Source of the DNA: Thuidium tamariscinum
Lineage: Eukaryota; Streptophyta; Bryopsida; Hypnales; Thuidiaceae
NCBI GenBank assembly: GCA_947034885.2
Contig: OX344750.2
Coordinates: 44,440,821 to 44,504,820 of the forward strand
DNA: 64,000 nucleotides
Direction: 5' to 3'
Of this stretch, positions 890 through 50,400 are shown piece after piece (position 1 is the first letter of the stretch; the number at the start of each line of letters is the position of its first letter). The notes beneath the pieces were generated by a model that had not been told where the DNA came from, made no database searches, and saw only the letters and a list, made by a program, of their open reading frames with translations. Both the position numbers and the translations under genes were made by a program.

Positions 890-3800
890 TCAATTAGAAG
901 GACAATAATCATCATCTCCTTTCACCTCTGCCCCACTACTCTCGCATCCTCGTCTGTATCCTACATCTTCATCGCTCGATGTGTTCTTCATACCATCTGA
1001 TGAAGATCCTGCACCTTCTACTTGCTTACTTCTCTTTGCTTTCCTTCACTTGATTGGCTTCTTGTATTCCTCTTTTACTTTCAATATTTCTTTGCTCATT
1101 TCTTCCCTAGAATTTAGACACGCGACCGGTTTCATTTTCCTCTTCGCAACAGGTAGGCATGTATGAAGGGGGGTTCTACCTGCATTCAATTTCTTCGCTG
1201 GTGAAACCGCGAAAGGCTGCATAGGTCTTTTTTTATTACCTTCATTGCCTACTTTGACCTCTAATTTCACTGCCTGGGGACATCCATGAACGATTATGTT
1301 GTGGCCCTCAAAGATTGCGGTGGAGAGGCTGTTGATTTCAGATTGCATCGTGGCGGTGCGGTGTGCAAAGCTAAATTACGTTTCATCTGTGCCAATGTCA
1401 CATCTCCATCATCATCGGTGGATGATAATACAATGGCAGTAAATTCGATGCAAGGCTGCTTTGCCTTGCCAACATTAACAAGCCGATGTCCAAGCCCTAA
1501 GCTCCTTGAACCGTCCAGATTTTGGCTACTAGTTCCAAATATGGCACCCGGTGCACCGCTCCGAGGTGGTTTTGGGGAATCTTGCATGAACTCTTCTCTA
1601 CGTTTGAGTGTATTGCCAAAGCTTGGACTCTCGGCCTCTTCTACACGTTCAATACCATTTTCCTTTACTGCAATTGTATTGATCGGGACCTCGTCATTGT
1701 CCGTACAACCCCTTTCTCCATCATTTTCTTCATCATTATCCTTTTCTTGAACCCTTCCTGTGGATGGAGATTGACAAATACGAATGCCTTCATCCGTGCC
1801 ACCATCCCCACCATCGGGAAGTGTTGTCCCATCCGCCTCCGCTATCTCTACAAAAGCGTCCTCCTTCTGCGATAGAATAGATTCGCTATTCAAAAACCCG
1901 AATCCATCCACGAATCTTGCTATACGAGGTTCATCTTCACCGTACCCATCATTCTCCTCATCGGAGTGAAAGTCATAGATGCTTGTATTATTGCCTCTCC
2001 ACCCACCATTCATTGGACTAGGACTACAGTACGTTTCGTCATACAAATTGTCCATGTCATTGTCCTCGTCACCTTCATCCCGTTGGTCAAGTGGATGAAG
2101 TCCATCATCGATGTCTTCCGCATTGCTTCCCGCATCAGAGGACTCGTAGTCCACATTGTCTCTGTACCATTTCTTCTCATCCTTGTTCTTCGATGTGCCC
2201 ACAACTTTTGAATTGGTGTACACATACACCAAGTCCGCTGCCCGGGTTGTTGCCAATTTGTTCCGAGATTTGTTGTGAACATAAGAGTAGCTACTCCAAT
2301 TTCGTTCGCATGCAGATGATGACACCGGTTGGGCCAAAATCCTCTTGGCAATGGGAGCAATTAGCTTCCCACATGCACCTTCAAAATCCCACCAAGCATG
2401 GGCCGACAACATTTGTTCTTGTGGCTCCAACATGGTATTGAATGGAGGGTCCCTATAGCGGAAGGCTACAAATTCCTTCACCACCTTCGCGTACTCTTCG
2501 GTAGAACATATCTTTGTTAGAACGTTCTTGCATCTCTCTGTTGCATCTTGATCGTCAGCTAGTTCTTTGTCGTGGAGAAGATACGGATTCAAAAGAGCGC
2601 CTGCATAATGGAGGTCTGTCTCCCCCATCTTTCGTCGTTTTACGAAGGACTCCTCCAGTGGTATTGCTCGGTCAAGGTCCAAACAAAAAGGTACTCCTCG
2701 TAGACCAAATACATGTTTTTCTAAATTCCGCATAATATGCAATACCTTCCCCATGCACGGCGTCTTTGCATCCAAATCACGTAGACCGAATACAACTGGG
2801 GCTGTCAGTTCCCGCACATTGATCAACCGGTCCCAGAAATGCTCATCCACAACTGTATTGTACACGTTCCTTGACTGCGATAGTGATTTGCCTTTGTCTC
2901 TATCATCCAATGTGTTCACGTACGCCACCCATTGTGGATCTACCACACTCTGCTTCAACGCATCCTTCACTTCCAACAAGCGGTCAATCATGATGAAATA
3001 AGAAGCAAACCTTGTTTCCAACGGCTTCAACAAACTGAACCTCGTCTCGTATTTCCGAAATATGGCAAGTGGCATGTGCCTCTTCCTGAAGAATTTGACA
3101 ACGACCTCGGTAGCCTTCACGTAATCTTTGATCCATGGCTGCTTCGCCCAATCCTTAAGCAACAAGTTCAAGGCATGCACCACACATCCTTGAAAATATA
3201 TGTGTGGATATTTATGGGACACCAAATTCCATGCTGCGGGGTTTGTATTGGTATTATCCGCAGTCACTTGCACTACATTCTTGGGGCCCACTTGCTCTAT
3301 GAATTCTTCCAAGATAGAAGCCACATACGGTGCTGTCTTCTTCTGTCCACTCGTATCCACCGATCCAAGGAATTGTTCACCTGCTGAAGAGTGAAGATAT
3401 GAGCATTGCATTTATTAATGGACGGTTTGTCACCGAGCTCCATCCATCAAAAGACAGTGTTGCTCCAAACTTCCTCACATTGTCTTTAGTCCTCAGAAGC
3501 AACTTCGTTTGAATATCTAACTTCGCTTGATCAAGCAATTTATGTCGCAGATCATTGTATGATGGAGGAGTGTAGGACTTTTTAAACTCAGCCGTCAACT
3601 TCACCGCTTCCCAAAAGGCTGGATTCCGAGCTACTGAAAATGGTATATTCGCCGAATAAAAAAAATGAGCCCATGTTGCATGTAATTTGCGTCTGTTGAC
3701 TTCATCAAATCCATCCACTAGCCTACTCTACGTTGCAGGCCTACTGCTTGATGCCCTCGAAGTATGCCGATTACCACCTGATTCCGTATTTGGAGTTATT

Positions 3801-10964: not shown

Positions 10965-11625
10965 TTAACCCTTAAAGGACCAAGGCCATTTTTTTGTTAC
11001 AAACCACTCAGAACTGTCATTTCTGCTGCGTTCACTATAAGAAAACCAAGAAAATACTTTTCTTTGGATCTAACCTTAGGATCTTGTACTTTACTTATCT
11101 AGGAAAAAGTGGCAAAAATATCAGATGACTTTGATCGCTATTCATGGAATTTTTTGGAACTATGGAGTACGGAGTATGGACCTTGAATTAAAATTTTTGA
11201 AGGAATTTGAAGAACTTAGATGGGAGTTGAAAGTCTAAGACAAAAATTTCAAGAAAAATAGGCTTGATTTTCATTATTCAAAAAATTGTTAAGTACAAGT
11301 AAGTCCAAGATTGAAAGAAAAACTAAATCATTAATAGCTCTAACATGGGATTGAAACACAATAATCTCAATGGTGAGATTGTTCTAGTTTTTTTCAACCC
11401 CCCGTCCCTTATTTTCAATATTTTGAGTTCATTGGATCATAGATGTTGTTATTGGGAATCAATTGTGAAAAAAATTACATTCCATGGAAGTTAATCAATT
11501 TTTTTATCTTTTGAAGAAGTTTTTAAAAACTAAAAACAAGGATCGAATTTGAAATTTCAGCCCGCAGGTACTACCACAAATCCCATGTTTCCCCACAAGG
11601 GCCAAAAGTGAATGACCCTTTAGGA
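10965..11625 (+). mobile_element. piggyBac-type MITE, right end decayed
   Basis: The left end at 10965 reads TTAACCCTTAAAGGACC, followed by AACCACTCAGAACTGTCATTTC-like sequence shared with other members. The right end near 11617-11626 (GACCCTTTAGGATTCC) is a decayed GTCCTTTAGGGGTTAA. The boundary on the right is approximate. Confidence 0.5.
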
Positions 11626-12092
11626 TTCCAACTTTCAATTGGAATTTCATTAAATTTGAATATTCCTTTGTCAATTGTCATAGAAGGTGTGTTACTATAT
11701 TTGGAACAATTTGAATCACCTAAATTTCAACAAATGATATTGACAATTTCCAATATTTAAGACTAGTATCATTATAATTTCCTAGAATTACAAATTCTTC
11801 CAAAAGAAATTAATTTCTGTTGAAATTGAAAACGTACTACGGTAATATAAATCATTCCTCTCTATCAGGTCCTAAGGTGAATTTTGGATACATATAATTT
11901 GAACATTGAAACCTAAAGTCATAGTTATTCCATGAAGTGTTCAAATTCCCCAAAATGCATGCAAATTGCAAAGAGAATCTAGCATTTATTTTTGATTTTC
12001 GAGAAGATTTAACATCAACTTGGCTAGTTTCAGAACCTAAACTAGTGTAACATGCTTACTCAATGAATTATCCGAATTCAAGTATCGATGTA
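11626..12092. other. AT-rich stretch, nothing recognised
   Basis: No coding frame, hairpin or transposon end was identified. Composition matches the surrounding AT-rich repeat DNA. Confidence 0.3.
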
Positions 12093-12448
12093 AGGTAGAA
12101 GCACCCATTATTTTCAGTGTATCCATAGTTTGACATTAGAGTTTCTTACAAAGTGTCCCCACTAGTACCTTGAAACTTTAGTTGTGCTTGGTGGGTTCTG
12201 ATTATTTTAGATTTTGGTGTGAGAATCTAGGCAGATTTACTAGGAGTGCAGATTTAGGTGCTCTACTAAGTTCTACTTTGAAAATTCACAGAAATTAGAT
12301 GCCTCGTCCAAAAATTCTAATTTTCTTTTTGGAAATTCATGATTTTCAGTTGCCAATACTACAAAAATATTCTTTATAGGAAAAGGTGCCTCCAACTATG
12401 CTGAAACTGCTAACTAACTAACTTCGGTTGTAATAGGTACTTCTACCT
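12093..12448. mobile_element. TA-duplication MITE with AGGTAGAAG ends
   Basis: Inverted ends AGGTAGAAGCACCC and GGTACTTCTACCT are flanked on both sides by TA (12091-12092 and 12449-12450). The pattern fits a Tc1/mariner-type MITE. Similar ends occur at 17913, 38364-38934 and 55529. Confidence 0.6.
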
Positions 12449-12465
12449 TAGGTCTTTGAGGGTTT

Positions 12466-12790
12466 CAACCCCCCCGCCCGTTCGTCCGCTCTTCCGTCGG
12501 TGCCGCCGTCCGCCCGTTGGTGCCCCCGTCCGCCCCTCGATGCCCCGTCCGCCCGTCGGTCCATCCATCCCTGCGTCCGCCCTCGACGGGCGCCGTCCGC
12601 GTCGTCCGTCCCTCGGTGAGTCCGCCCGATGTCTGTACGATCCAGCGGACGCCGATTTCTGTCCGCTGGATTCTGCCATCCGCCTCTCGGCCGTCGGATG
12701 AGCATCTGGTCGTCCGCCTCGGTGGGGGGCGGACGGCTCAGTATAAGAAGCGGGGCGGACGGCTCATTTGGCCACAACCGTTTCCCTCTG
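12466..12790 (+). promoter_or_regulatory. GC-rich GTCCGCC array with TATAAG box
   Basis: More than a dozen GTCCG or CGGAC words lie in about 300 bases of very GC-rich DNA, against an AT-rich background. TATAAGAAG begins at 12742 within the last part of the array. The ATG of the domain X-GY gene lies about 300 bases downstream. The same array-plus-TATAAG layout precedes the kinase-like and hAT-like genes. Confidence 0.55.
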
Positions 12791-13043
12791 GAGTGGACGA
12801 TCCAGTGCCTGATTTTAATCTGTGGCTCTGCGCGCCCCTTCCGACGTTGTGTGCAAACGGTTGTGCTTCATTAATCATCACTAAAATGCTTCACGAACTT
12901 TAGTTGAAGTAATGATCAGGCTCTGAGGGACTACAACTTCATCTAAACTGCATCGCACTGTAACTTTGAAGCATTTTGATTTCTTATTGCTGGAATTAGT
13001 GTGAACGAAGTCATCAGTTGCTCTCATTTTTGTCAACGCCACC

Positions 13044-14117
13044 ATGCCTCGTGATGAAAACAAGAGAAATAAGGGGAAATCCCAAAGCATAAATTGGGAT
13101 GATTGGAATGATCCAATGTGTGTTGGTGAACCCGGATGGGAGAGTGAACCAAAGAAAGTTTGGACCGCCACTACGTGCAAGAAGTACGTGAAAATGACGC
13201 ACATTGCCAAATTGTGGGCATCGGACCGTGCAACGCAACAAGTTCGCCGTTGGGAAGGGCAAACATCCACGTGTCTCAGTAGGCACTTTGTTCACCGATA
13301 CGATGAAGTGACGCGTAATGCTGGTATACGTGACTCCAAACCAAATGTCATGAATTATACGAACATGGCCATGGTCTGGGCAAAGATTGTACTTCACAAA
13401 GATGTTGATTGGCGCACAATATATGGAAAAGATGTGGCGACTCTCAATCGCAACGAAGCAGTCATTTATACGAGCTGGACTAATGCAAGCGATTGCATGC
13501 CTGAATGGTCCAATCGAGGCCAATTTGGATTTCCTGCAACAGTGATGCCGGATGCAGAGGAGCCCGTCCCAGATGATGATGATGATGTTGAAGAGGCTAC
13601 TGCACCCGTGGCCGATGGAGAGAGGCATGAACGTAGAGAAGCTCGAGAGGACATTCAATATGAGCATGAAATGCGTGAGGCAATGCGGAGAAGCATAGAA
13701 GATCGTGGTCCACAATATGGTTACGATGGGTACTATGGACGTGAACGTGGTACACATGACCCACGAGGTGGGCAAAGTCGTTCTCAAATCGTAGGAGGAA
13801 GCCACGGAACCGCGCACAATGCTCCTTCTACCCAAGAAGGCTCCCAATACCATTCGAGGTCTAGTGGAGGTGGTTCATATGGAAATTATGGGCATCATGG
13901 AGGGTCTTACCATGGCCGTTCAAATGAAGGAGGCTCCTACTATGGAGATTCAGTTCCTCCTCCAACCTTTGGAGGGCCTCATTACGGGAACTATGGACAA
14001 GGAGGAGCAGGAAGCGGAGCAGGAGACGTGTACGGTGGAGGACCATATATGGGGGTGTATGGATCTAGTTCTGTAGGCCATAGTCAGAGAGATGATACCG
14101 ACTCAGATTCCGAGTGA
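13044..14117 (+). CDS. Domain X protein with Gly/Tyr/Ser-rich tail
   Basis: Intact 357-codon single-exon frame starting at ATG 13044 in a CACC-ATG context. Residues about 17-135 form domain X, shared with the decayed gene at 8697: W32, C45, Y48, K50-M51, H53, L57-W58, D61, C77, FVHR 82-85, EV 88-89, Y105 and VDW 121-123. I do not recognise this domain in any named family. An acidic run (about 168-180) and a charged, possibly helical part (200-230) follow. The last 125 residues are rich in Gly, Tyr, Ser and His, a composition typical of disordered, condensate-prone proteins. GC content is well above the flanks. A TATAAG box lies upstream at 12742. Function unknown; nuclear or RNP association is speculation. 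Confidence 0.8.
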   Translation: MPRDENKRNKGKSQSINWDDWNDPMCVGEPGWESEPKKVWTATTCKKYVKMTHIAKLWASDRATQQVRRWEGQTSTCLSRHFVHRYDEVTRNAGIRDSKPNVMNYTNMAMVWAKIVLHKDVDWRTIYGKDVATLNRNEAVIYTSWTNASDCMPEWSNRGQFGFPATVMPDAEEPVPDDDDDVEEATAPVADGERHERREAREDIQYEHEMREAMRRSIEDRGPQYGYDGYYGRERGTHDPRGGQSRSQIVGGSHGTAHNAPSTQEGSQYHSRSSGGGSYGNYGHHGGSYHGRSNEGGSYYGDSVPPPTFGGPHYGNYGQGGAGSGAGDVYGGGPYMGVYGSSSVGHSQRDDTDSDSE

Positions 14118-14640
14118 AGTACAACAAAAAGACTACACTCTTGTAGTGGCTAGTCCGCACTACGGTGTAATGATTGTAATCCACTGCCATGTACCGTAGG
14201 TGGTGGCAATCATAGTAGTGTAATGTTGGTGAGGGGTACTCACGAACCTATAAGTATTTATGAAAATACAAATTTTTGAAATGCGTGAGTACAATATTGG
14301 ATCTATGGATGGGACCTTTGACCTGTAGTATTAAATTTAACCAATGTGTAGCTATTGTTATTATTTAAATATGAATATTGCATCGGAATGTTTTCCCCTC
14401 TTTTCTAGTACTCCGGTTACAATGCCTCCTCGAACATATATTTGAAACATAGTTTTAACAACTTAGAATTGTGAAGTAGAATTTAATAAGCTAAAAACTT
14501 GATTGGGGTTATGCTTGTTATGCCTTTGAACCTAATATTATTTTGATGACCCATTTTGAAAATTGTGAAAATTGTCAAGGCAATACTTGGTCATTTGGGG
14601 GTTAAAAGAAATAGAAGACTTACATGTTAGTTTATTTAAG
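14118..14640. other. 3' flank of the domain X gene, nothing recognised
   Basis: AT-rich non-coding sequence after the stop codon. No reading frame and no clear repeat end. It probably includes the 3' untranslated region of the preceding gene. Confidence 0.35.
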
Positions 14641-31396: not shown

Positions 31397-32306
31397 TAAT
31401 AGAGTAATGTAAAATGAAATTTATGTTGTTTCTTTTTCCGAATTTTTTTTCATAGAATTTCAGATGTTGGATGAATGATACAATACAATATGCATGAGTG
31501 GCCATTACAGACCCTTTACCAACGTTTCATTGACTAAACCTAGGAAACATGGAGATATGGACATCTTGAACCTTGTTCATTAATAAAGTGGCAGTAGATA
31601 CTGCCACTTTACAGTGCATTGGGAAAGGTATGCATGCCTGTAATATAAGGTATGGTAGGAGGCTCAGAAACCACTCATTTAAGAGCTGATTTGCCTTTTC
31701 CGTGTATGTCTTTAGATGGAAACATTTTTAGTTTATTTTTTAGTCAAGGAGAAATAGATGAGGAATGTAACACAAGTCGTTTCATATTTTTTGAAGCATT
31801 ATTGAATTAGTTATGAATTTTCAAACAAAATGTGCCATAGGACCCTATTTGTGATCAGTAGGCCTTGAAACCCATACATGTGCAGTTTCAAAAAAAATAT
31901 GGTTTGATTCAAAAACTTGTAATGCAACATGTGAAAAGCACTAAAAATGGTTTCTGAATGTGTCCCTTTCAAAAACTGAAATGAATTCTTCAATCAATCA
32001 TTACAGTGGAAACACCCAAAACCATCCAAATTCAGCATAGTTGGAGGCATCATTTTCTAAAAATAATATTTTTCTAGTATTGGCGAATGAAAATCATGAA
32101 TATTCAAAAAAGAAATTAAAATTTTCAGATATAGTATGTAATTTCTACAAATTTTCAAAGTGTTGGCTCCCTAGACCAGTGGAACCGTCCTATAGGTGCC
32201 CTCAAAACTGAACCCTATGAAAATCAGCACTTTGCCAACTAGATTTTCCTATGTGTCCTTCAATTGTGTCAACAAATTACAATCACACATGTGGCAAACA
32301 CATTAA

Positions 32307-33568
32307 CCCCTAAGTTCCCAAGGCATTTTCTGGCTCTGAAACCACTCAAAACTGCCATTTCTCTTGCATCGATGAAATTTTCTTTTAAGATTCATAATTT
32401 GAAATTTTAACCGTAGGATCTTGTATTTTACTTGTATAAGGTCACATGATAAAAATTTTGCAAGGTTTGACCGTACGGATTGAAAGATATATGCATTCAA
32501 ATATTACAGGTTGTTTTTTTTTCACTGTGCCCGACAATTTCAGATGCCTTTGACCGCCGTTTGCTGAAATTTTTTGCACTACCGAGCCTAAGGTTAAAAT
32601 TTTTTCTTATGGTAAAACATGTTAGGCTCATACATGCCAATTTTCAAAAGAATCCAAGCCATGGAACACATCCCAAAAAATCTTGTAACGTCACAATGTC
32701 CCAGGAATTCACAATACACTGAGCCATCTTTGCATCAATTTTGCCACCACATAATTTGAGATATTCAAAATCCAAACGGTAGATAGAAAGGTCTGCTCAT
32801 CTTCAAGAATTAGCAAAAAAAAAATTTGAAAAAAAACAAAATCTCAAATTTTTACAAGGTTCTGAAGTCTGCTGCCACCTCAAAAGAAGTACACAGAGTG
32901 GGCAGCCCTTGTATAATGGGACCCTTCATGTTCCCAGTTAGTTCCCAATGAATTCCCATGATGTTCTACTGCAGTGGAACTTGTTCCCAGTAATTGTAAC
33001 CAAGTAGTTCTCTCCATGGACTGATGGCAGTTAGCTTGTAATTGTGTTCAATCACTTGGACACATGCCATGGCCTCATTGCTCATGTAGGAGGTAGGGTT
33101 TCTGTAAAATGGTACTCTTCTTCTCAAAAAGGGTACTTGAGTGTTGTTCCAAATAGCTCATAACCTACAACACCAGTACATGAGGTCAATGGAAATTGCA
33201 AAAATGCAGAATGAAAAAAAAAGCTACTCAACAACCAAAAATACATCCAGAATTCTATATGATAGTCCCAGTGGAATTAAAAATATATCACATTCCGTAC
33301 TTTCTAAATTCATAGTTCATTCATATAATGACGTAATGAAGTATTACATAATAAATCTTCAAGGCCCCATTTTAATCCTACTAATGAAAATATACCTTAC
33401 TTCTCTCTCAGTAATATGAAAATAATGCACTACAATCCAAAAATTAGTATAGGTGCTTCAAAGTAATGTAATCATATTCAACCATGGCACTCTAAAGGAG
33501 TGTGATTTTGATGCTCAAATGTATGGATGGCTACAAGTGTAGAAATTGTACTTACATCAATTATAGCT
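32307..33568. other. piggyBac element, transposase-distal 1.26 kb
   Basis: Non-coding left interior between the inverted end and the transposase stop codon. Its first 250 bases resemble, inverted, the right half of the piggyBac-type MITEs (AACCACTCAAAACTGCCATTTC near 32340). This is the shared sequence that ties the MITEs to the full element. No other gene was seen. Confidence 0.5.
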
Positions 33569-36314
33569 TCATTGGAGGTTGTCATGGTACTTTTGAAAAC
33601 AACCCTTCCGCCAACACATGAACTTATTTTCACATGTGGGACAATATGTCTTGGGCCTAATCAAAGCACTTGAGCCATCATTGCAAACAACACATGCTCT
33701 TCGGAAAATGCTAAACGCTGGATAACAAATACGCACACATTGGGGGGCTTCAATGCATTGAAGACATCTTTTCTTCAACCAATTGTTTGTAAGCGCTTTG
33801 CACAACTCTGTACGGAATTGAAGATGAGTCATTGGATGTCGAGGTGGCCTCCTTTGTTTGCATTCGTCCATGTAAATGATATACATATTCACAATGCTTG
33901 TGTCAGTGAGGAAGAAAAACACCCGATGCCACCACTTGTGTGAACGAGTTTGACAAGTGTATGATGCACGCAATTGATCAGCAACATCAACCCCCCTCAT
34001 ATATGTTGTATATTCCACATGTACTGGAGATGTTTGAATTTCCTCACGAATAGAGCCACTTCGCCGCGGGACAGACACCACTGGAAATTGGCAAGGGAAT
34101 TGTATTGGCATTGTGTGCGTTGAAAGGATGAGAACGGGTTTTTTATCCTTCCACAAAATTGAACACATTTGGCGTGATTCATGCATGCGCCACTCCAAAG
34201 TACCTTGTGGCTTCCTATTGAAATCTTTTGTATTTTTTAGAACACTAGGAAGTCCAACCCGATTGCACCGAATAGTCCCTGTGGCATATGTCCCTTTCTC
34301 TAATAGCTCTTTGAACAAAAAAATGCTAGTGAAGAAGTTATCCATTGTTATTACATGCCCCTTGCCCTCTATTGGGGCCACTAGTCGAAGGACTACATTA
34401 TGAGCCAATCGTGGTGCACCACTCACTATTGATGCATGTCCACCTTCATCTACAACGGGATTTTTGCCACAATATACTTCAAAATTGAAGACATATTTTG
34501 ATTGTACATCAGTTAGACACCAAACCTTGAGTCCCCATTTCTGTGGTTTTTGGGGCATGTATTGTCGTGCTGGACAATATGTGCCCTTATATCTAATCAT
34601 CATCTCGTCTATTGTTGCATATTTACCCACTTGCCATGCACTTTTGCAAATACCACAAATAGCATTCAACAACCATCGAACTTGCCCCATTTTGTCATAT
34701 CCCGGTTTATTTTTATCGCACTCATATGTTGAAGGATTTGTAACATGTAAGCACTTTGTCAAATGTTCAAACCAGTTCCGGGACATGAGTGCGGTGATTG
34801 TTGAGCAATGAAATATTGAACCAAGCTTTTGCCAATATGTTCTTACATTCGGTTGCCGCTTCATCCCCATATATAAAGTGATGGCAATAAAAACCTTGAG
34901 TTCGGCTATTGTCAAAGGTTCCCAATTGTCTCCTCCATAAGTTTTGCCATTGCTATTGACAAAAGTGGCATATCTATTTGTTTCAGTAACAATGCGATGC
35001 AAAACAATATAGGGCCAAAATATGTCAAATAAGTTTAGGAATGTAGGGAAGTGCCTCCAAGTACTTGGGGACCCTGAATTCCCAGTGAAATGTTCAGGCT
35101 CTGGATCATATGTTATAAAATCCTTATGCCATGTTGAATCACGGTACAAGTATTTGATGCCATGTATGTCCCCAATATCAGAGTCTGAATCATCTTCGTT
35201 TGAGTCTGTATCATCCATTTCTGCATAGGGAAAATCAATATCACTTTCACTCTCATATGGTATAGTAGGTGGTGTAGTGAAATTTCCCCCCCTAGTGTGC
35301 CCACGACATGGTGTAAATACATGAGACCCATCTCTATCATCCTCAAGGCCAAGAAAATCACTTGTAGTTCCCCTCAAAACAAATTCTCCTCTAGAAGATG
35401 ACCCTCCCATATGATATTGCCCTCCCCCTTCGGTCCCTGTGAATTGCCCTCCCGTAGTGGGAGACAGTTCAGGGCCAGAGGAAGAGGGGAAGTTGGGGGC
35501 AGTCGGTGGGCTGCTTCTGGAGGGCACCCTACCACCCCCCCAACCCGCTTCTCTGCCGACCCCCCTACCGGCAGCTCTGCCGGCCAGCCTTGCGGCAGGA
35601 GGGCCAGCGGGGTCTGCAAAGGGGGGCGGCAGTTCACCTGGCCCTCCGCCGCTCCCCTCCAAGCCTCCCCCGCTTCCAACCACGCCTCCGCCGCTCCCCT
35701 CCGGGCCGTTGCGGTCGATGCTCCCGCCCCGTCCTTCGCCGTCCTTCCGCAAGTACTGATCGATGCTTGCAGACGTTGTAGATTGATGTAGCGTCCGCCG
35801 TAGTCGTTTAGATTTTAAGAAATTGGTGGAATTGTGCAATACCTCGGGTGGCCATAGAAGCTCTTCAAGTGACCGGACCTCAGGAAATGCATAATCGCCT
35901 TCATCGAAATCATCTTCTTCAAGTTCTTTGCAATTTGAATCTCGTCCATCTTCATCTTGAGATTGGCTGTCTATAAATTTTGGATCAGGTTCTCCAATGT
36001 GTACAATGTCTGTGAAGTAGTCAACGTCTTCTTCTTGGCAAGACACGGGTGGAATTGGAAGTGGTGTCGGATAGTCAAAACTTGGAGTAGGAACTTCTAC
36101 AGGTGATGGACTTGTACTCAAAGATAGTTGATCGATAGAGATTCTGTCTGCCAATGATATGAGCCGGCAACTGCGACGGACTGGAAGCCCATCCCAAGCA
36201 ATCTACACAAATGCAGGCAAGACAACACATGAGACAACGGAAAAATATTTGTGAAAGCAAAAGAGAATGTGAAGAAGAAGAAAATACCTCCTTTCCCTTG
36301 CGGCTGGACCTCAT
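33569..36314 (-). CDS. piggyBac transposase, two exons
   Basis: Exon 1 is 36314-36288 (ATG 36314, nine codons) and exon 2 is 36202-33569. The 85-base intron (36287-36203) has GT and AG ends and keeps phase. The product is 886 residues, against about 590 for insect piggyBac. The extra length is an acidic and then Gly/Pro/Ala-rich N-terminal region of about 330 residues. The catalytic core is complete: ATIDE aspartate (34607-34609), MDNFFTS aspartate (34340-34342), and both aspartates of RGVDVADQ (33985-33987 and 33977-33979), followed by the typical HKWWHRVFFFLTD segment. The C-terminal Cys-rich domain (about 33590-33730) has many paired cysteines, as used to bind element ends. It should cut and paste the element at TTAA. 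The first ATG and splice are inferred from the sequence. Confidence 0.9.
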
Positions 36315-36899
36315 TGTAACTGTCCTTGATGAGAGTAAATCCTACAGCTTTGTCAACAACTCACAAGTTCTATAGTTTCCAAAGCAATTGACATTGAACA
36401 CTGAAATTTTGGCACTAAGTGCACACTACCTTCTTGATAGCAATGCTGCTGTAGATCTAGGTCTGAACACATGAACAAGTAGCCGACTTTGCATTAATTT
36501 GATAATGGGAGTGCTCATTATGTATTTGGTGTGTTGTTGGTCATAGCAATTCAGAGTGTGCTAATTTAGCTTGTACAATTCGACTTATTTATGAGTCCTT
36601 CAATTACTTGCCACTAATTGCGAACGCCATTGCTTAGTAGTCATAAATTTAGGAATGTTGCGTTCAATTTGATGTCATGGAGCCCAATTTGGTTGCAATA
36701 CTTCAATTACTCCCTCCAAATTGCAATCTCATCTACTCAGCAGTCATAAATTTTGTGAATTCTGCTTCGATTCCTTATTGGATTCACATTTTCCAAGTTA
36801 GATTGAGCCAGCAATTTCCAATTTCTTGGCAGAATTTGTGCGGATTGCGCCGACATTTCAGTTCTACATCATTTAATTTAGTGGGGCGCATCAAGAATT

Positions 36900-37260
36900 T
36901 CTCAGATTTGCTTGGAATTCCCCTCCATCGAAGCTGCCGAAGCGTGCGCAAGCGCAGGCGCAGGAGCAGCGCAGCCGCGGCCTAAAGCAGACAGGTCCGA
37001 TCGCGGGGTGTTCAGTCCAACCCGACCTCCGACCGGGCGGGGGGGGGGGCGGATTCAGCCCGATTCGCCGGCTTCCGGACTCAGCGACCTTTGGCTCCAG
37101 ACTCAGCGACCTTAGGCTCCGTTTGAATCCGTGGACTCAGTTCCCCAGCATGGGAACATGCGATCCCCTGGCACCAGGTCGGGATTTCAACCCGTTGCCC
37201 TCTCCAGTCTGTTCTCTTGCCCACTTCTGCTGCCCTTCTGCAGTCAAAGCCAGATTCTCT
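36900..37260 (-). promoter_or_regulatory. GC-rich region upstream of the piggyBac transposase
   Basis: A GC-rich stretch with G10 (37029-37038) and CGGACTCAGCGACC-type direct repeats (37076 and 37100) lies 600-950 bases before the ATG, within the element. It is a likely promoter region by position. It lacks the dense GTCCG array of the four-gene cluster and no TATA box could be assigned. Confidence 0.35.
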
Positions 37261-37548
37261 TGCCCAAGCTGCCCTACGAACTGCTTTTGACGAAAAAATG
37301 CTTATAACTTCTACAATGTAAGTCGGATTTTTATGAAAATTATATGTGCACGAAGCTTGTGAGAAATTGTATATACACAAAAAGTTTCAAAAAATCATGT
37401 TGAAAATTGAGATTGAACAAGCTTGCCCAAAATCCCAAGTGTCCCCCGAGGGGACTTTGGGCATTTAGGGGTTAAGGGAACTCTACTGACGCATTTGGGT
37501 GAATTTATAATCCACTGCAAGGAACAGGTTTGGGAATCGGTGTCTTTA

Positions 37549-38363
37549 TTTCAGATTTTTTGACACTTGAAAGAAGGTAGTTCAACAACCATTTTTTATT
37601 TTGAATAATATCAGTAAATACTTGCCCACTTAGTTAGGATTGAACTCATGTAACTCTTAAACCATCCATTCTAATAGTAAAAATCAAATCTTAGCATGCT
37701 TCAATATAATTCACAATTCATTTTTTCACAACGAGCTATCCATTTCAAACCCTCCTATTGGGCAACAATGTTTGTTTTTTAAAATTTTAAGGGAATGTGG
37801 ATTTGGGCTCTAGGTGAGAAGTAAGTGGTTGAAGTTAGGTGATACTCAAATTTACTTTTGGTGCAATATTTGGCTCCAAGTTAGGAATTAGTGTAGTTGT
37901 ATGGCTTCAAAACTAAAATCCAAAAAACATTTTTGCCAACTATAGCTCTTACATTGGTGTAAAATAGGGCAACCAAGTGGTGCAAAATAGAATGCACATA
38001 AATTATGAAAAATATGACTCACAAATTCATGCACATGAACTATAGCTCATTCATGTACTTGGGTTTCAAAGTCTAATATCTTCCTAATTCATGTGCATGA
38101 AGTTTTGAATGGTTTGTGCAACAAAAATGCAACCTCAAAGATTGCAATTGGTAGAAAAAGTTGACTACAATTGAAAGCAAGAAAATTGTAGCTTCAAAGA
38201 AAGTGACAAAACTTGGTGATAGGATGAAGGTGCCTTTGTATATGTGGCTACAGTCTATACCTATATCTCCAACTTTGGTATATTTTAGGCGATTGCAAAT
38301 GTAAAGTTGTTGAATCAACATCTAGATAGGTGGCAATAGGTAGAAAATCCTAGTAGTCCTTGT
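37549..38363. repeat. Continuation of repeat block copy 1
   Basis: Directly follows the split MITE. It matches 52622-52900 (GAAGGTAGTTCAACAACC against TAAGGTAGTTGAAGAAC, then the GTTAGGATTGAAC region). No coding frame. The part after 37800 is AT-rich and not recognised. Confidence 0.45.
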
Positions 38364-39144: not shown

Positions 39145-40979
39145 TTAAAGAATGGATAAGCGAGCTTTTGGAATGGCAATCAAAGGGGAAGCTAGTACAT
39201 GCCCAATACCTTCACTTCATGACATATCTAAGTCCATAGGTTGCAAACCATTAGGAAGGGACCAATCAAAAGATTGCAAAAAAGTTGCAACCATAATGTG
39301 AACCAAAGTGGAAGCTAGCATGATGCCCAGACATTGTCTTTGCCCAGCTCCAAATGGTAGCATCTCAAAAATTTTGCCGTCAAAGTGTACATGAGCATGA
39401 GGCATCCCATCCAAAAATCTTTCAAGCTTGAAAGTCAAAGGATCCTCCCATATTCTTGGATCTCGAGCAATTGCAACAACATTTACAAAAACTAGTGTTT
39501 TTGGTGGTATATCATATTCCAAAACCTTGCAAGGTTTTTCATTTGCATGAGGAACTAACATTGGGATAACTAGGTGAAGGTGGAAGTTTTCTTTGATGAT
39601 GGCTTGCAAATACTTGAGGTTAGGAATGTCCGCATCTTCCACTCTTCGAGACTTGCCTACAACAGTATCAAGCTCTTCTTGCACCTTCTTCAATACAATG
39701 GGATTGCGAATGCATTCCGCAATTGCCCATTCTATTGTGTCGATAGTTGTACTTATACTTCCTGTAATAGCATTCTAGTTTTTGAAAGAGAAAACAAGTT
39801 AGATGTGCATTTACTTACTTAAACCTATTTACAAAATCAACTTGAACAATATAACTTTAAAAAGAATTTGATAAGAAAATAGGAGCTTTAATGTATTTGA
39901 AATTTTTATGTATAAATTTCACCACATAATCTTCAATATACAAATCATCAGTTTTACAGGGAAATAACCTTCAAAATAGTTTCCTTGTGACTATCTTTCA
40001 CCTTGTTCATTTCAAATATTCAAATCATTAGGAGGGATTTGAGGGCTCCGCAGGGCCGTTTCGGGATTGTTCCCGAAACTGGTCTGGGAACGGCTGGCCG
40101 TTGTCAGGTCAGCATTTTTTTTTTTTTTTTTAAAAAAAAGTTTTTTTTTGGGTCCTGAAATATGAAAAAAAGTCCAAAACAAAATTCGAGAAAAAAAAGT
40201 TGATGACGTGGCACGATCTCGACCACGTCGGATTCCTACATATCTGCGTTCCCCGCGACTGATTACAGATTTCGGGCTGTGGGAACTCGCAGGCTCCCAG
40301 AGCCCTCAAATCCCTCCTAATGGGTGAAGTCTTTGAAAGACTAAAAAATAAAAAATAAAATAAGTTTTTGATAGCCTCCACTTTATGAAAAGGAATTATT
40401 CTCTTACCCACAATGTACTCTTGACGTTGTCATTGGTGATGCCAAATTGCAATGTTTCATCCTCAATTTGATCTAGAAAGACATCTACCATATCTTTGAC
40501 AAAGATTGAACCATTTTTTCGTTGTACTACATGCTCAGATATTATTGGGGACATGAAAGCATCCATTCTCTCTCTCAGCTCTTGAAGTTGTCTTTCAAGT
40601 CCAAAAATGTCCATCCACTTGAACACAGGGATAAAGTCTCCTAGATTTATAATCAATGCATACTTGGTGAGATCTATCAAAATCTTTCTAAAATTGCTCA
40701 CTTCTTCAAGTTCTTGTTCATCATGTTTTTCATCAAAAGACATTGCCATAAAATGCCTTTTGAGAATCACACGTGACATGATGTTAGTTACAGCCACTTC
40801 AATGTGGCTCCTCACATGTGCCTCTATGATACCATCTTTGGGAATCACACTCATGACATGAGCGATTTCTTCTGTTCATACATTTGTTGCTAGTTGAAGT
40901 TGTTTATTGGTGCTAAGTTGCATGTGTAATATTTTCTTCAAGTGCAACTTTGTAGGTGAGTCTGATGTCAAGGCTACAT
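39145..40979 (-). pseudogene. Cytochrome P450, truncated and mutated copy
   Basis: Exon-intron equivalent of the last two exons of the gene at 47418-50733: 40979-40408 (572 bases) and 39774-39145 (630 bases), identical in length to the sister exons. Both upstream exons are missing; similarity to the sister's long intron stops near 41805. Inactivating changes: TGA at 40876-40878 (an arginine codon in the sister), TGA at 39217-39219 near the C-terminus, ExxR changed to ENFH, PERF to LERF, and I-helix GGIG to GSIS. The heme-binding FGAGQRQCLG cysteine is still present. Intron 39775-40407 holds a 295-base MITE. This is a DNA-level duplicate, since introns are retained. Confidence 0.85.
40027..40321. 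mobile_element. MITE in the P450 pseudogene intron
   Basis: Perfect inverted ends ATTAGGAGGGATTTGAGGGC (22 bases in all) at 40027 and their complement ending at 40321. GC content is higher than the intron, and T16/A8 runs lie in the middle. The sister intron (near 48300) lacks it, reading TTCAATTTGGTGAAG there. The target duplication cannot be resolved. Confidence 0.8.
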
Positions 40980-45500: not shown

Positions 45501-46896
45501 GTGGGGTACCAAACTACCAATCAAAATGTCGTTTTTGAATTCACAGTGAAAATATTTTTAGTACTACCAACTTTGAAAGCCTCGCGAGAGCTCAAAAATT
45601 GGTATTTTACAACGGAATTTTTACCACAATATTATCTTTAAGTTAGTTATATGAATACTAAATTTAAAGTCCAAAAGACTCACCAAAAAAAAGTTATTCA
45701 AAATCTACCAACATGGGTAGTGGTGAGAAACATTTCACTACTTTCAACTTTGACACCTTCCTAAGGATTGAGTTTTTTTTCTTTTGCCATGAAACTTTTG
45801 TCATGAAACAATCTCTATGTTTTTAATATGTGGAGAAAATGTCAAGGTAAAAAAATTGTTTTTTAAGAAGGTATTTGAAATCTCCCAAGAAGTGTAGTTT
45901 TGAGAAAATTTTCACTATTGCCAACTTTGACACCCTCCTAAGGGCTAAAAAATTTGTTTCTTACAATGAATCTTTTTTTGTTAAGTCATCTCTATGTTGA
46001 TAATATGTGATCCAAATTTCAAGTTCAAATGAATTACCAAAAAGAAGATATACAAAATCTCCCAACATGTAGTTGTGAGGAGGAGTTTTTGAGCCCTTAG
46101 TATAGTGTTATTTTGTGGAGCAAAGTTTGACACGAATGTAAAAACTCAACCTCACAACTACACATGTTGAGAGATTTTGAATATCTTTTTCTGGGTAAGT
46201 GTTTTGAACTTGAAATTTGAAACATATATTATCAACATAAAGTTGATCTTATTCAAAAATTTCATCTTAAATAGACAAATTTTCAGTCCTTGAGAGGGTG
46301 TCAAAGTCGGCAATAGTGAAAATTTTCTCACAACTATACATGTTGGAAGATTTTGTATATCTTTTTTTCGGTAATTTATTTGAACTTGAAATTTATATCA
46401 CATATTATCAACATAGAGATGATTTCACAAAAAAAGATTCATTGTAAGAAACAAAATTTTCAGCCCTTGGGAGGGTGTCAAAGTTGGCAATTGTGAAAAT
46501 TTTCTCAAAACTACACTTCTTGGGAGATTTCAAATACCTTCTTAAAAAACAATTTTTTTACCTTGACATTTTCTCCACATATTAAAAACATAGAGATTGT
46601 TTCATAACAAAAATTTCATGGCAAAAGAAAAAAAACACAATCCTTAGGAAGGTGTCAAAGTTGAAAGTAGTGAAATGTTTCTCACCACTATCCATGTTGG
46701 TAGATTTTGAATAACTTTTTTTGGTGAGTCTTTTGGACTTGAAATTTAGCATACATATAACTAACTTAAAGATGATACTGTGGTAAAAATTTCGTCGTAA
46801 AATACCAATTTTTGAGCTCTTAGGAGGCTTTCAAAGTTGGCAGTACTAAAAATTTTTCCCCGAAAATTCAAAAACGACATTTTGATTGGTACCCCA
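45501..46896. mobile_element. 1.4 kb fold-back element built from tandem sub-units
   Basis: The left end GTGGGGTACC and right end GGTACCCCAT are inverted, and the two halves are complementary along almost their whole length, turning near 46100-46200. Each arm holds three diverged units of 150-190 bases with the phrase CAACTTTGACACCTTCCTAAGG. The same units stand in direct order upstream of the hAT-like gene (4600-4990). Block copies at 31400 and 61770 lack the insertion. Confidence 0.8.
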
Positions 46897-47417: not shown

Positions 47418-50400
47418 TTAAGAAATGGATAAGCGAGCTTTTGGAATGACAATCAAAGGGTGAGCTCGTACATGCCCAATTCCTTCACGTGCTGACATAT
47501 CTAAATCCATAGGTTGCAAACCATTCGGAAGAGACCAATCAAAAGATTGCAAAAAAGTTGCAACCATAATGTGAACCAAAGTGGAAGCTAGCATGATGCC
47601 TGGACATTGTCTGCGCCCAGCTCCAAATGGTAGCATCTCAAAATTTTTGCCTTCAAAGTGCACATGAGCATGAGGCATCCCATCCAAAAATCTTTCAGGC
47701 TTGAAAGTCAAAGGATCTTCCCATATCCTTGGATCTCGAGCAATTGCAGTGACATTTACAAAAATGAGTGTTTTTGGTGGTATGTCATACCCCAAAACCT
47801 TGCAAGGTTTTTCATTTGCATGAGGAATTAACACTGGGAGAACCGGGTGAAGACGAAAGTTTTCTTTGATGATGGCTTGTAAATACTTGAGGTTAGGAAT
47901 GTCCGCATCTTCCACTCTTCGAAACTTGCCTACAACAGTGTCAAGCTCTTCTTGCACCTTCTTCATTACAATGGGATTGCGAATGCATTCCGCAATTGCC
48001 CATTCTATTGTATCGGTTGTTGTACCTATACCTCCTGTAATAGCATCCTAGTTTTCAAAAGAGAAAAAAAATTTAGAGGTGTCGTATTTAAACCTATTTA
48101 TAAGATGAACTTGAAGACTTGAGATCAATAATATAATTTTAAAAGTTTGACAGAAAATAGGAGTTTTTATGTATTTGAAACTTTTATGTATAAATTTCAC
48201 CACATAATTTTCATTATACAAATCATCAATTTTAGAGTGAAATAACCTTCAAAATAGTCCTCTTGAGACTATCTTTCACTTCGTTCTTTTCAAAACTTCA
48301 ATTTGGTGAAGTCATTGAAATAAAAATAATAAATAAATAAAATAAAATTTTGATAGCTTCTACTTTATGAAAAGGAATTGTTCTCTTACCCACAATGTAC
48401 TCTTGATGTTGTCATTGGTGATGCCAAATTTCAATGTCTCATCCTCAATTTGGTCTAGAAAGACATCCACCATATCTTTGACAAAAATTGAACTACTTTT
48501 CCGTTGTGCAACATGCTCAGTTATTATTGGAGACATGAAAGCATCCATTCTCTCTCTCAGCTCTTGCATTTGTCTTTCAAGTCCAAAAATGTCCATCCAC
48601 TTGAACATAGGGATAAAGTCTCCTGGATTTATAGTTTGACCATATTTGTTGATGTCTATCAAAATCTTTCTTAAATTGCTCACTTGTTCAAGTTCTTGTT
48701 CATAATGTTTCTCATCAAAATCCATTGCCATAAAACGCCTTTTGAGAATCACACGTGACATGATGTTAGTTACGGCCACTTCAATGTGGCTCTTCACAGG
48801 CACCATTGTGACACCATCTTGGGGAATCACACTCATGACATGAGCAATTTCTTCCACTCTCACATTTGCTGCTAGTTGAAGTTGCTTATTGGTGCTAAGT
48901 TGCATGTGAAGTATTTTCTTCAAGTGCAGCCTCATAGGTGAGTCCGATGTCAAGGCTACATCTAGTATCAAATACAATCACAATTGTTAGAAAGATGAAT
49001 TTTAAACTACAAAAGTTGAACTGAACTAAAAACCACTAAAATGAAATGACTCTTATATTAGTTTAAGAAATAAAGAACTTCTTAATGCCTAGAGCTTTGA
49101 AAACCAGAAACGTTTTACTATTTGGAGACGTGAATCATACATTTGAAATGGTAGTATGGTAACTACACTTATAACCCATTATCAATAGTGCTTCAAATGT
49201 GACAACAAAGTTTGGATCTTGAAGCATAAAAGAAAATTAGATATTGATTATTCATGATGTACACTATCAAACCCTAATAGTCTATAAAAGCCTATTCATG
49301 TTTGTTTAGTAGATCTAGAGGCATTATCTAAGAGACCCATGATTTATTCATACATTAATCATATTAAACGTATTGAAGTATATTGGAATCTTCTTTTAGT
49401 TGCTAACAAGATTTTACAAAAATAATTCATATTTAGTAATACAAACTATCACTAGAAGGAGCTTGTGTTTTCCTGAATTTGTGTCAAAGTTGATGAATGG
49501 GTTCCTTCTAGTCTTTGCTTTGTTTTCATTAGTATCAATCCAGAATAAGAGAATTTAATACCTTAATCAACCTAAATCTATCATTCTACTATTGAGCATT
49601 CCAGACACTCAAGCTTCTATCTCTTCCATATTTGAAAACAAAATGCAATGATCTAAAAAACCATCTTCATAACCTCAACCAAACTCCGTTTGTACAAATG
49701 CCAATCACTCACAGGGTAAGGAGAGGCATGTAATCTTCCAAAACTTTGGGTTTGTCTAGCATTACCAGTTTTTACTTTTAACTTGTTCATAGAAGATATA
49801 TCTAACATGAAAATGGAGCCTTGTTATGGAAACAACACTCAGTCATGACTACCTTGGTTTGTGTGTTATTTCTCAAAAATTATGAAATATGTATTTTCAT
49901 GTTACATTCAGCATCCTCAATGAGGAATTCGAATCTAAGTTAGTTTCCGAGGAGAGGAAGAGGAGGCCTCAAGGTACCTCCAGGACAAATCACATCTGCA
50001 AAAGATGTTGCAATTCGGTTTGCGAAATTGGGGCCTTGAGTCTTGAGAATCTCTTTTGCTGCCGCAGGCGAGGTAGCCACCACAGCGAGTTTTGGCCCCA
50101 ACCACACGGACATCAGCGGGCCATACGTCTCCGCCAGTTTGGCAAAGTCTTGTAGTGGGAATCTGCCCAGCCGGTGCAAGGATCCGATGATGGGGAGACC
50201 CCGCGGGCCTGGTGGCAAGTTCTTGTATTTGCTGCCGGTGAGCAACTTGGCAAGCAGCAGAAGGCCAAGCACCACGGCACTCACAACCTGCGCAGATCGA
50301 CAGCACCATCGACAAGTAGATTCATGAGATTATGCACAAAAACCAGCTTAATTTGAGCAAACATTTGGAGACTCATTCAACTGCTATCCACACTATCAAT

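Follow-up and report, generated by a model that had tools for sequence, protein, structure and literature searches.

A structurally intact piggyBac-superfamily transposon and its relatives in the genome of the moss Thuidium tamariscinum

Introduction

The piggyBac element is a leading transposon of genome engineering and is best known from animals, which also host piggyBac-derived miniature inverted-repeat transposable elements (MITEs), that is, short sequences that share only the ends of the autonomous element. The present study deals with an element of this superfamily in a stretch of DNA of the moss Thuidium tamariscinum, 64,000 nucleotides long and referred to here as the window (assembly GCA_947034885.2, contig OX344750.2, denoted C2, positions 44,440,821-44,504,820 of the forward strand). 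A model that read the letters of the window, without database searches, had proposed a complete, possibly active piggyBac transposon in what looked like a plant genome (the original prediction).

The closest described system is the piggyBac of the moth Trichoplusia ni (structures 6x67/6x68), which resembles the moss element in its TTAA target and duplication, CCC-type ends, triad of catalytic aspartates (DDD), and Cys-rich C-terminus, as well as in its unequal ends, with a left-end palindrome centred near base pair (bp) 25. The moss element differs in its sequence (26% identity in the compared region), in the length of its transposase (886 amino acids, aa, versus 594), and in its gene, which has a predicted intron. 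It also has approximately 385 N-terminal residues before the core, compared with the disordered residues 1-117 of the moth protein (PMC7351741), and measures 5.17 kb, versus approximately 2.47 kb (PMC10813416). The bat element piggyBat (9c0f) is alike in its catalytic core, and differs in its sequence (25% identity) and in its chain of 578 aa, in which residue 116 is the first of the match. The elements of the Pokey and E clades, whose hosts are animals, likewise have long transposases, reported to reach 903 and 1316 aa, respectively (PMC10813416).

The superfamily has been reported from insects, fungi, and plants (PMC10813416), and from most eukaryotic lineages (PMC9499001), while a survey published in 2015 places it among the superfamilies found in all the groups studied, land plants included (PMC4438587). 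Table entries record a single 75-bp piggyBac fragment in Stipa (PMC8319324) and 122 kb of piggyBac in Ceratopteris (PMC6890710), and the piggyBac of the moth has been discussed as an untested tool in Physcomitrella (PMC5505980), while another paper with both bryophytes and the term in its text speaks of piggybacking (PMC10619864). A search showed no occurrence of the word piggyBac for a paper on the actively transcribed transposons of Physcomitrium (PMC7466625), and no endogenous piggyBac element of a moss is described by title or abstract in the literature searched, the scope of which did not extend to most subscription papers or to Repbase. The original prediction had held that intact piggyBac elements are not a familiar component of land plants; the presence of the superfamily there was already in print (PMC4438587).

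The Window Element, Its Copies, and Its Insertion Site

The element of the window is very likely an autonomous DNA transposon of the piggyBac superfamily, native to this moss genome (Table 1). The original prediction of a complete piggyBac transposon in a plant is borne out by the family of the transposase, the exact boundaries, the sister copies, and the empty sites, and the window copy combines an open transposase frame with two intact ends. The sequence CCCCTAA is found at each end, in line with the CCC-type terminal inverted repeats (TIRs) of the superfamily. Together with the TTAA, the TIRs occupy positions 32303-32321 and 37457-37475, forming an imperfect pair of 19 nucleotides with 89% complementarity, and the coordinates predicted originally, TTAA on both sides included, were exact.

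The assembly that was searched consists of 19 contigs totalling 363 Mb. When the whole element was used as the query, 40 of the 2533 candidate places were scored, so the numbers of copies are lower bounds, and at least two further full-length copies were recovered, C7:1354927-1360069 and C2:25810070-25815277, which reproduce the boundaries of the element exactly. The three copies have the same TTAA start and end, and different flanks, and are thus of the kind that the original prediction had proposed to look for, near-identical copies in new surroundings. Excluding gaps, the pairwise identity is 98.25% between the window and C7 copies, 97.35% between the window and C2 copies, and 97.55% between the C7 and C2 copies. 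Each of the three retains the ATG and both splice sites, donor and acceptor, and none has a stop at an aligned codon, while the frame is uninterrupted only in the window copy.

The insertion site provides further evidence. A query in which 130 bp from each side of the window element were joined around one TTAA was searched against the genome, scoring 40 of the 4623 candidate places (again, a lower bound), and the junction was crossed by 41 of the 42 match rows among those scored. The identity is 87-92% in 40 of these rows and 73% in the remaining one, and most of the matches span query positions 1-205. Six empty sites were fetched and aligned, and all six have one TTAA, with no base gained or lost at the junction, which is the pattern of the superfamily (TTAA target, 4-bp duplication, and a single TTAA in the empty site). 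It follows that the element landed in one copy of a dispersed repeat and duplicated the TTAA, as piggyBac does. For the C7 and C2 copies, the same query design yielded no hit among the matches listed, the scored places having been filled by matches to the window flanks. An origin of the three copies by segmental duplication is not supported, in view of the differences between their flanks and of the empty paralogues of the window site.

The host repeat itself corresponds to positions 32173-32302 plus 37476-37550 of the window and has around 40 scored relatives throughout the genome (of the 4623 candidates). One empty relative lies directly past the right edge of the window, at C2:44505032-44505309.

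Table 1. Coordinates of the piggyBac element of the window and of its parts (position 1 is the first letter of the window).
Feature	Position	Strand	Basis
piggyBac element, TTAA to TTAA, 5173 bp	32303..37475	- (transposase strand)	sequence read, inverted-repeat search, two further copies, empty sites
TTAA target site duplication, left	32303..32306	.	single TTAA in 6/6 fetched empty sites
TTAA target site duplication, right	37472..37475	.	single TTAA in 6/6 fetched empty sites
TIR, end on the transposase-3' side	32307..32321	.	inverted-repeat pair
TIR, end on the transposase-5' side	37457..37471	.	inverted-repeat pair
Terminal stretch, 59/60 bases matching the majority of ten ~930-bp elements	32303..32362	.	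alignment
Terminal stretch, 46/46 bases identical to the majority of ten ~930-bp elements	37430..37475	.	alignment
Palindrome GTCCCC-TCG-GGGGAC (transposase strand), bp 17-31, centre bp 24; candidate dimer site of the Cys-rich domain	37441..37455	.	sequence, analogy
Exon 1 (MRSSRKGKE), 27 nucleotides	36288..36314	-	ATG and both splice sites present in 3/3 full-length copies
Predicted GT-AG intron, 85 nucleotides	36203..36287	-	sequence only
Exon 2, 877 aa + stop	33569..36202	-	open frame
N-terminal extension, residues 10-385, acidic, Gly/Pro-rich, without Pfam match	35075..36202	-	Pfam, alignment
DDE_Tnp_1_7 catalytic region	33887..35035	-	Pfam
Codon of catalytic Asp 541 (= D268)	34607..34609	-	alignment to piggyBac
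Codon of catalytic Asp 630 (= D346)	34340..34342	-	alignment to piggyBac
Codon of catalytic Asp 748 (= D447)	33986..33988	-	alignment to piggyBac
C-terminal Cys-rich domain, residues 846-882 (CX2C, CX2C, C, C, H)	33584..33694	-	Cys/His pattern

The Transposase

The two predicted exons together encode 886 aa and a stop, with no internal stop. Exon 2 matches the Pfam family DDE_Tnp_1_7 (E 7.7e-77), and a phmmer search of the PDB returned just two sequences at E <= 1, piggyBac 6x67 (3.7e-30) and piggyBat 9c0f (5.8e-20). Residues D541, D630, and D748 align with D268, D346, and D447 of piggyBac, the triad of the superfamily, whose catalytic roles are described for the moth protein (PMC7351741). The arrangement CX2C...CX2C...C...C...H is common to the moss sequences that reach the C-terminus (L017 does not reach it), and this Cys/His pattern points to the zinc domain of the superfamily, with putative zinc binding. 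On all these points, the exons and the alignment agree with the original prediction of a spliced frame of 886 residues with every catalytic aspartate, a Cys-rich C-terminus, and no stop or frameshift.

The N-terminal region, which is of low-complexity composition, had been singled out as an unusual extra region of roughly 330 residues. The extension is real, but is less unusual than was thought, given that other piggyBac families of this moss have a long N-terminus (in frames of 1023 and 1127 codons, the domain match begins at residues 497 and 595, respectively), while the animal Pokey and E clades are reported to have long transposases. Among seven proteins from other loci, Pfam revealed no extra N-terminal domain at E <= 1; a small barrel-like motif, suspected by eye in some of them, is not put forward here. 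Modelled by AlphaFold from a single sequence, exon 2 of the window transposase reached a mean predicted local distance difference test score of 34.1, too low in every part for the model to be used.

A Palindrome at the Transposase-Side End

In the moth piggyBac, a dimer of the Cys-rich domain binds a palindrome located within bp 17-33 of the left end, where the minor groove is narrowed at approximately bp 25 (PMC7351741). By analogy, the palindrome of the moss element may serve the same role. Its occurrence was counted in 12 elements (the window element, L021, L009-L017, and L019), leaving out L020 and L022-L028, as being almost the same as L021, together with the full-length copies on C7 and C2, which have the ends of the window element. 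Positions were counted from the base after the TTAA, and the count covers perfect palindromes with arms of five or more bases. A perfect palindrome centred on bp 24-25 is present on the transposase side of nine of the 12 elements and on the other side of none of the 12, as the ends were paired. In the interior of seven of the elements, such palindromes occur at a background of 1.4% of 37,303 positions. Each of the four lineages recognized in this genome has at least one element with a perfect palindrome.

Some observations weaken this pattern. The 12 elements are not independent, and fall, by the tree of core domains, into the window lineage, L021/L009/L011/L013/L019, L010/L017, and L012 with L015, the ends of L014 and L016 being the same as those of L015. 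In L014-L016, which are copies of one family, there is only an imperfect GGAC/GTCC pair, centre 25, seen by eye. In L013, two possible 3' ends tied on score, and the nearer was used for the count, but the farther one carries the same palindrome; either this farther end is perhaps part of an adjacent element, or the restriction of the palindrome to one side may not be strict.

Non-Autonomous Relatives

The left terminal 30-mer of the window element is found at 220 places in the genome with up to two mismatches, and the 100 places listed, on C1-C11, include 69 that are exact. The right terminal 30-mer is found at 116 places under the same limit, of which 100 were listed, 23 being exact. The exact places at each end include the three full-length copies, and the reversed-pattern controls of both 30-mers returned no place.

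Ten elements were fetched (L030-L039) from the better-scoring rows of the whole-element search, a choice that favours intact ends, and all are bounded by TTAA, 928-933 bp long, and 97.5-99.2% alike. A matching transposase therefore worked fairly recently. Three of them (L030, L035, and L039) may represent one insertion multiplied together with its surroundings, because the adjacent 20 bases are the same on both sides. As in the piggyBac-derived MITEs of animals, only the ends are shared with the full-length element, here in a moss and with a length of approximately 930 bp. Inward of the terminal stretches of 60 and 46 bp (Table 1), the match becomes patchy, and over the end stretches of 303 and 140 bp it amounts to 75-76% and 80-82%, respectively. 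The internal part was compared for one of the ten, L033, and nothing in the window element matches it. In the simplest reading, the elements of approximately 930 bp would have been moved by the transposase of the window family, and the conserved terminal stretches would reflect its requirement; in length, these stretches are reminiscent of LE35 and RE63, the minimal ends of the moth piggyBac (PMC7351741).

Diversity of piggyBac in the Genome

A search of the genome with the Pfam family scored 116 of 659 candidate places, again a lower bound, and all 116 were above the cut-off, 74 of them without a stop inside the match. A frame of 1023 aa was found in 11 rows, and the nine copies that were fetched (L020-L028, on C1, C2, C5, C8, and C9) are each 5096 bp long and TTAA-bounded, six being identical throughout and the other three differing by one or two bases. 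There is no 20-mer common to their 500-bp flanks, and this family is the product of a very recent burst at unrelated TTAA sites. Two near-identical elements of another lineage, L014 and L015 (C8:23929494-23946664), lie in opposite orientation with their transposase matches approximately 7 kb apart, and over 5.6 kb their differences amount to three mismatches and a single gap.

The core domains of ten sampled moss transposases were placed in a tree with the moth and bat sequences, and form one group against these two (98/99). There are four deep moss lineages, with the window sequence alone on a long branch, and the order of the other three is not settled.

It is fairly probable that mosses harbour a varied piggyBac fauna of their own, of at least four deep lineages, which was active until very recently and perhaps still is, with the window family feeding a swarm of non-autonomous elements, and with the end geometry of the moth piggyBac. 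If this is true, unequal ends bound by the Cys-rich domain would go back to the ancestry of the superfamily in both animals and plants. The moss families would provide a distant comparison for the way in which the superfamily recognizes its two unequal ends, and those that are intact and recently duplicated offer plant-adapted transposases to test as tools. The case is made more interesting by the wider genome, with its lineages, base-identical copies, and swarm of non-autonomous elements.

Host Genome

The original prediction had named contamination from an animal or protist, or a lack of both other copies and close relatives in related plants, as findings that would speak against it. Contamination is exceedingly improbable. 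It would agree with piggyBac being best known from animals, but the window lies deep in a 47.85-Mb contig, at 44.44-44.50 Mb, and the left end of the element is found on C1 to C11, that is, on 11 large contigs among those examined. Contigs C1-C9 measure 54.2, 47.9, 47.4, 32.5, 30.6, 29.1, 28.8, 25.7, and 24.9 Mb, respectively, C10 and C11 have element ends at positions 16.3 and 11.4 Mb, and C12 and C13 measure 22 and 36 kb. The start of C3 has 146 units of the plant telomere repeat CCCTAAA in 1.5 kb, while the end of C2 has no such units and the start of C1 reads N. The first 4 kb of C19 (115,000 bp) contain rps7 and ndhB, which identifies it as the plastid, and those of C18 (103,123 bp) contain YMF19 and cox1, which identifies it as the mitochondrion; a plasmid search with the cox1 stretch returned no match. 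Genome notes on three mosses, Straminergon, Climacium, and Ulota, describe 11 chromosomes, of which three exceed the others in size, and mitochondrial genomes of 104.6-104.9 kb. The mitochondrial genomes of liverworts and hornworts are much larger. The element is thus native to a land plant, in all probability a moss, and is not contamination; the plastid contig, the plant-type mitochondrial contig, and the telomere repeats uphold the view of the host taken originally, and the element has both sister copies and relatives within the same genome.

Proposed Mechanism and Alternative Explanations

A spliced mRNA would be translated into a transposase that binds both ends of the element, with a dimer of the C-terminal Cys-rich domain presumably seated, by analogy with piggyBac, on the bp 17-31 palindrome next to the 5' side of the transposase gene. 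The DDD active site would then excise the element at the TTAA and insert it at a new TTAA, and the elements of approximately 930 bp would be mobilized in trans by the window family. The activity of the window copy is plausible, and the term “possibly active” of the original prediction fits its intact frame and ends and the mutual similarity of the non-autonomous relatives, although the chances that this copy is able to move today appear to be about evenly balanced.

The C7 copy is frame-broken where a single base is missing from the region that encodes the N-terminus, the frame of the C2 copy is broken by indels (its changes relative to the window copy are +1, +8, +6, and -42), and three copies that are 2-3% apart do not show present-day movement. 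The ratio of nonsynonymous to synonymous substitution rates (dN/dS) is 0.45-0.49 for the whole coding sequence in the three pairs, but reaches 1.14 in the catalytic plus C-terminal part between the window and C7 copies, on four synonymous changes, and 0.80 and 0.61 in the other two pairs. With four to seven synonymous changes over all the pairs, purifying selection in the core is not demonstrated, and the dN/dS argument for it was rejected because there are too few changes. The TIR score, by itself, is not distinctive and is weak evidence, given that 17/19 is reached by five of the 14,458 TTAA pairs located 1-8 kb apart in the window, the element among them. Because four other pairs score as highly, TIR similarity alone was rejected as proof; these four pairs, which are AT-rich looking or of another repeat type, were set aside. 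Identical ends do not prove that the window family, rather than an unseen relative, moves the elements of approximately 930 bp, and 66 of the 100 listed right-end places are two bases off the right end of the window element.

The possibility that the window copy is an immobile relic, its frame having remained open by chance survival, overlaps with the reading of an autonomous element and is a serious one, if somewhat short of probable. Two of the three full-length copies found (at least three being present) are frame-broken, and their identity of 97.35-98.25% implies some age, but no lesion was detected in the frame, splice sites, or ends of the window copy, and the ten elements of approximately 930 bp that have its ends are 97.5-99.2% alike, which indicates fairly recent work by a matching transposase. 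A domesticated host gene derived from piggyBac, similar to the PGBD genes, is far less credible, and highly improbable: the whole-sequence dN/dS below 1 would agree with it, but a domesticated gene is expected to be single-copy and to have lost its ends, and here three copies lie at unrelated places with intact, TTAA-bounded ends, the window site having empty paralogues. The arrival of the window family by horizontal transfer from another eukaryote, apart from the other moss piggyBac lineages, is unlikely. Its transposase sits on a long branch, with 36-42% identity to the other nine moss rows, but is nearer to these than to the moth (26%) and bat (25%) proteins, and groups with them (98/99), a weak test in that it includes only two outside rows.

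Other Features of the Window

An Rfam search of the window at gathering thresholds returned no match, and a scan of viral contigs yielded no relative. Positions 1294-3411 contain a transposase frame of the DUF659/hAT type. Inverted ends (13 of 16) that start with CCC and are bounded by TTAA surround a frame of 370 aa (13005-14117), without a Pfam match, at 10965-14605, which is possibly another TTAA-targeting element, and some of the “Tourist-like” repeats of the original prediction may be of the same kind. At 45638-46769, inverted arms of more than 40 nucleotides enclose repeats of 177 bp, in what looks like another element with long TIRs. Two copies of a cytochrome P450 gene lie on the same strand, at 39217-40875 and 47418-48977, their readable parts being alike by eye, and the best PDB matches of one of these copies are plant P450s.

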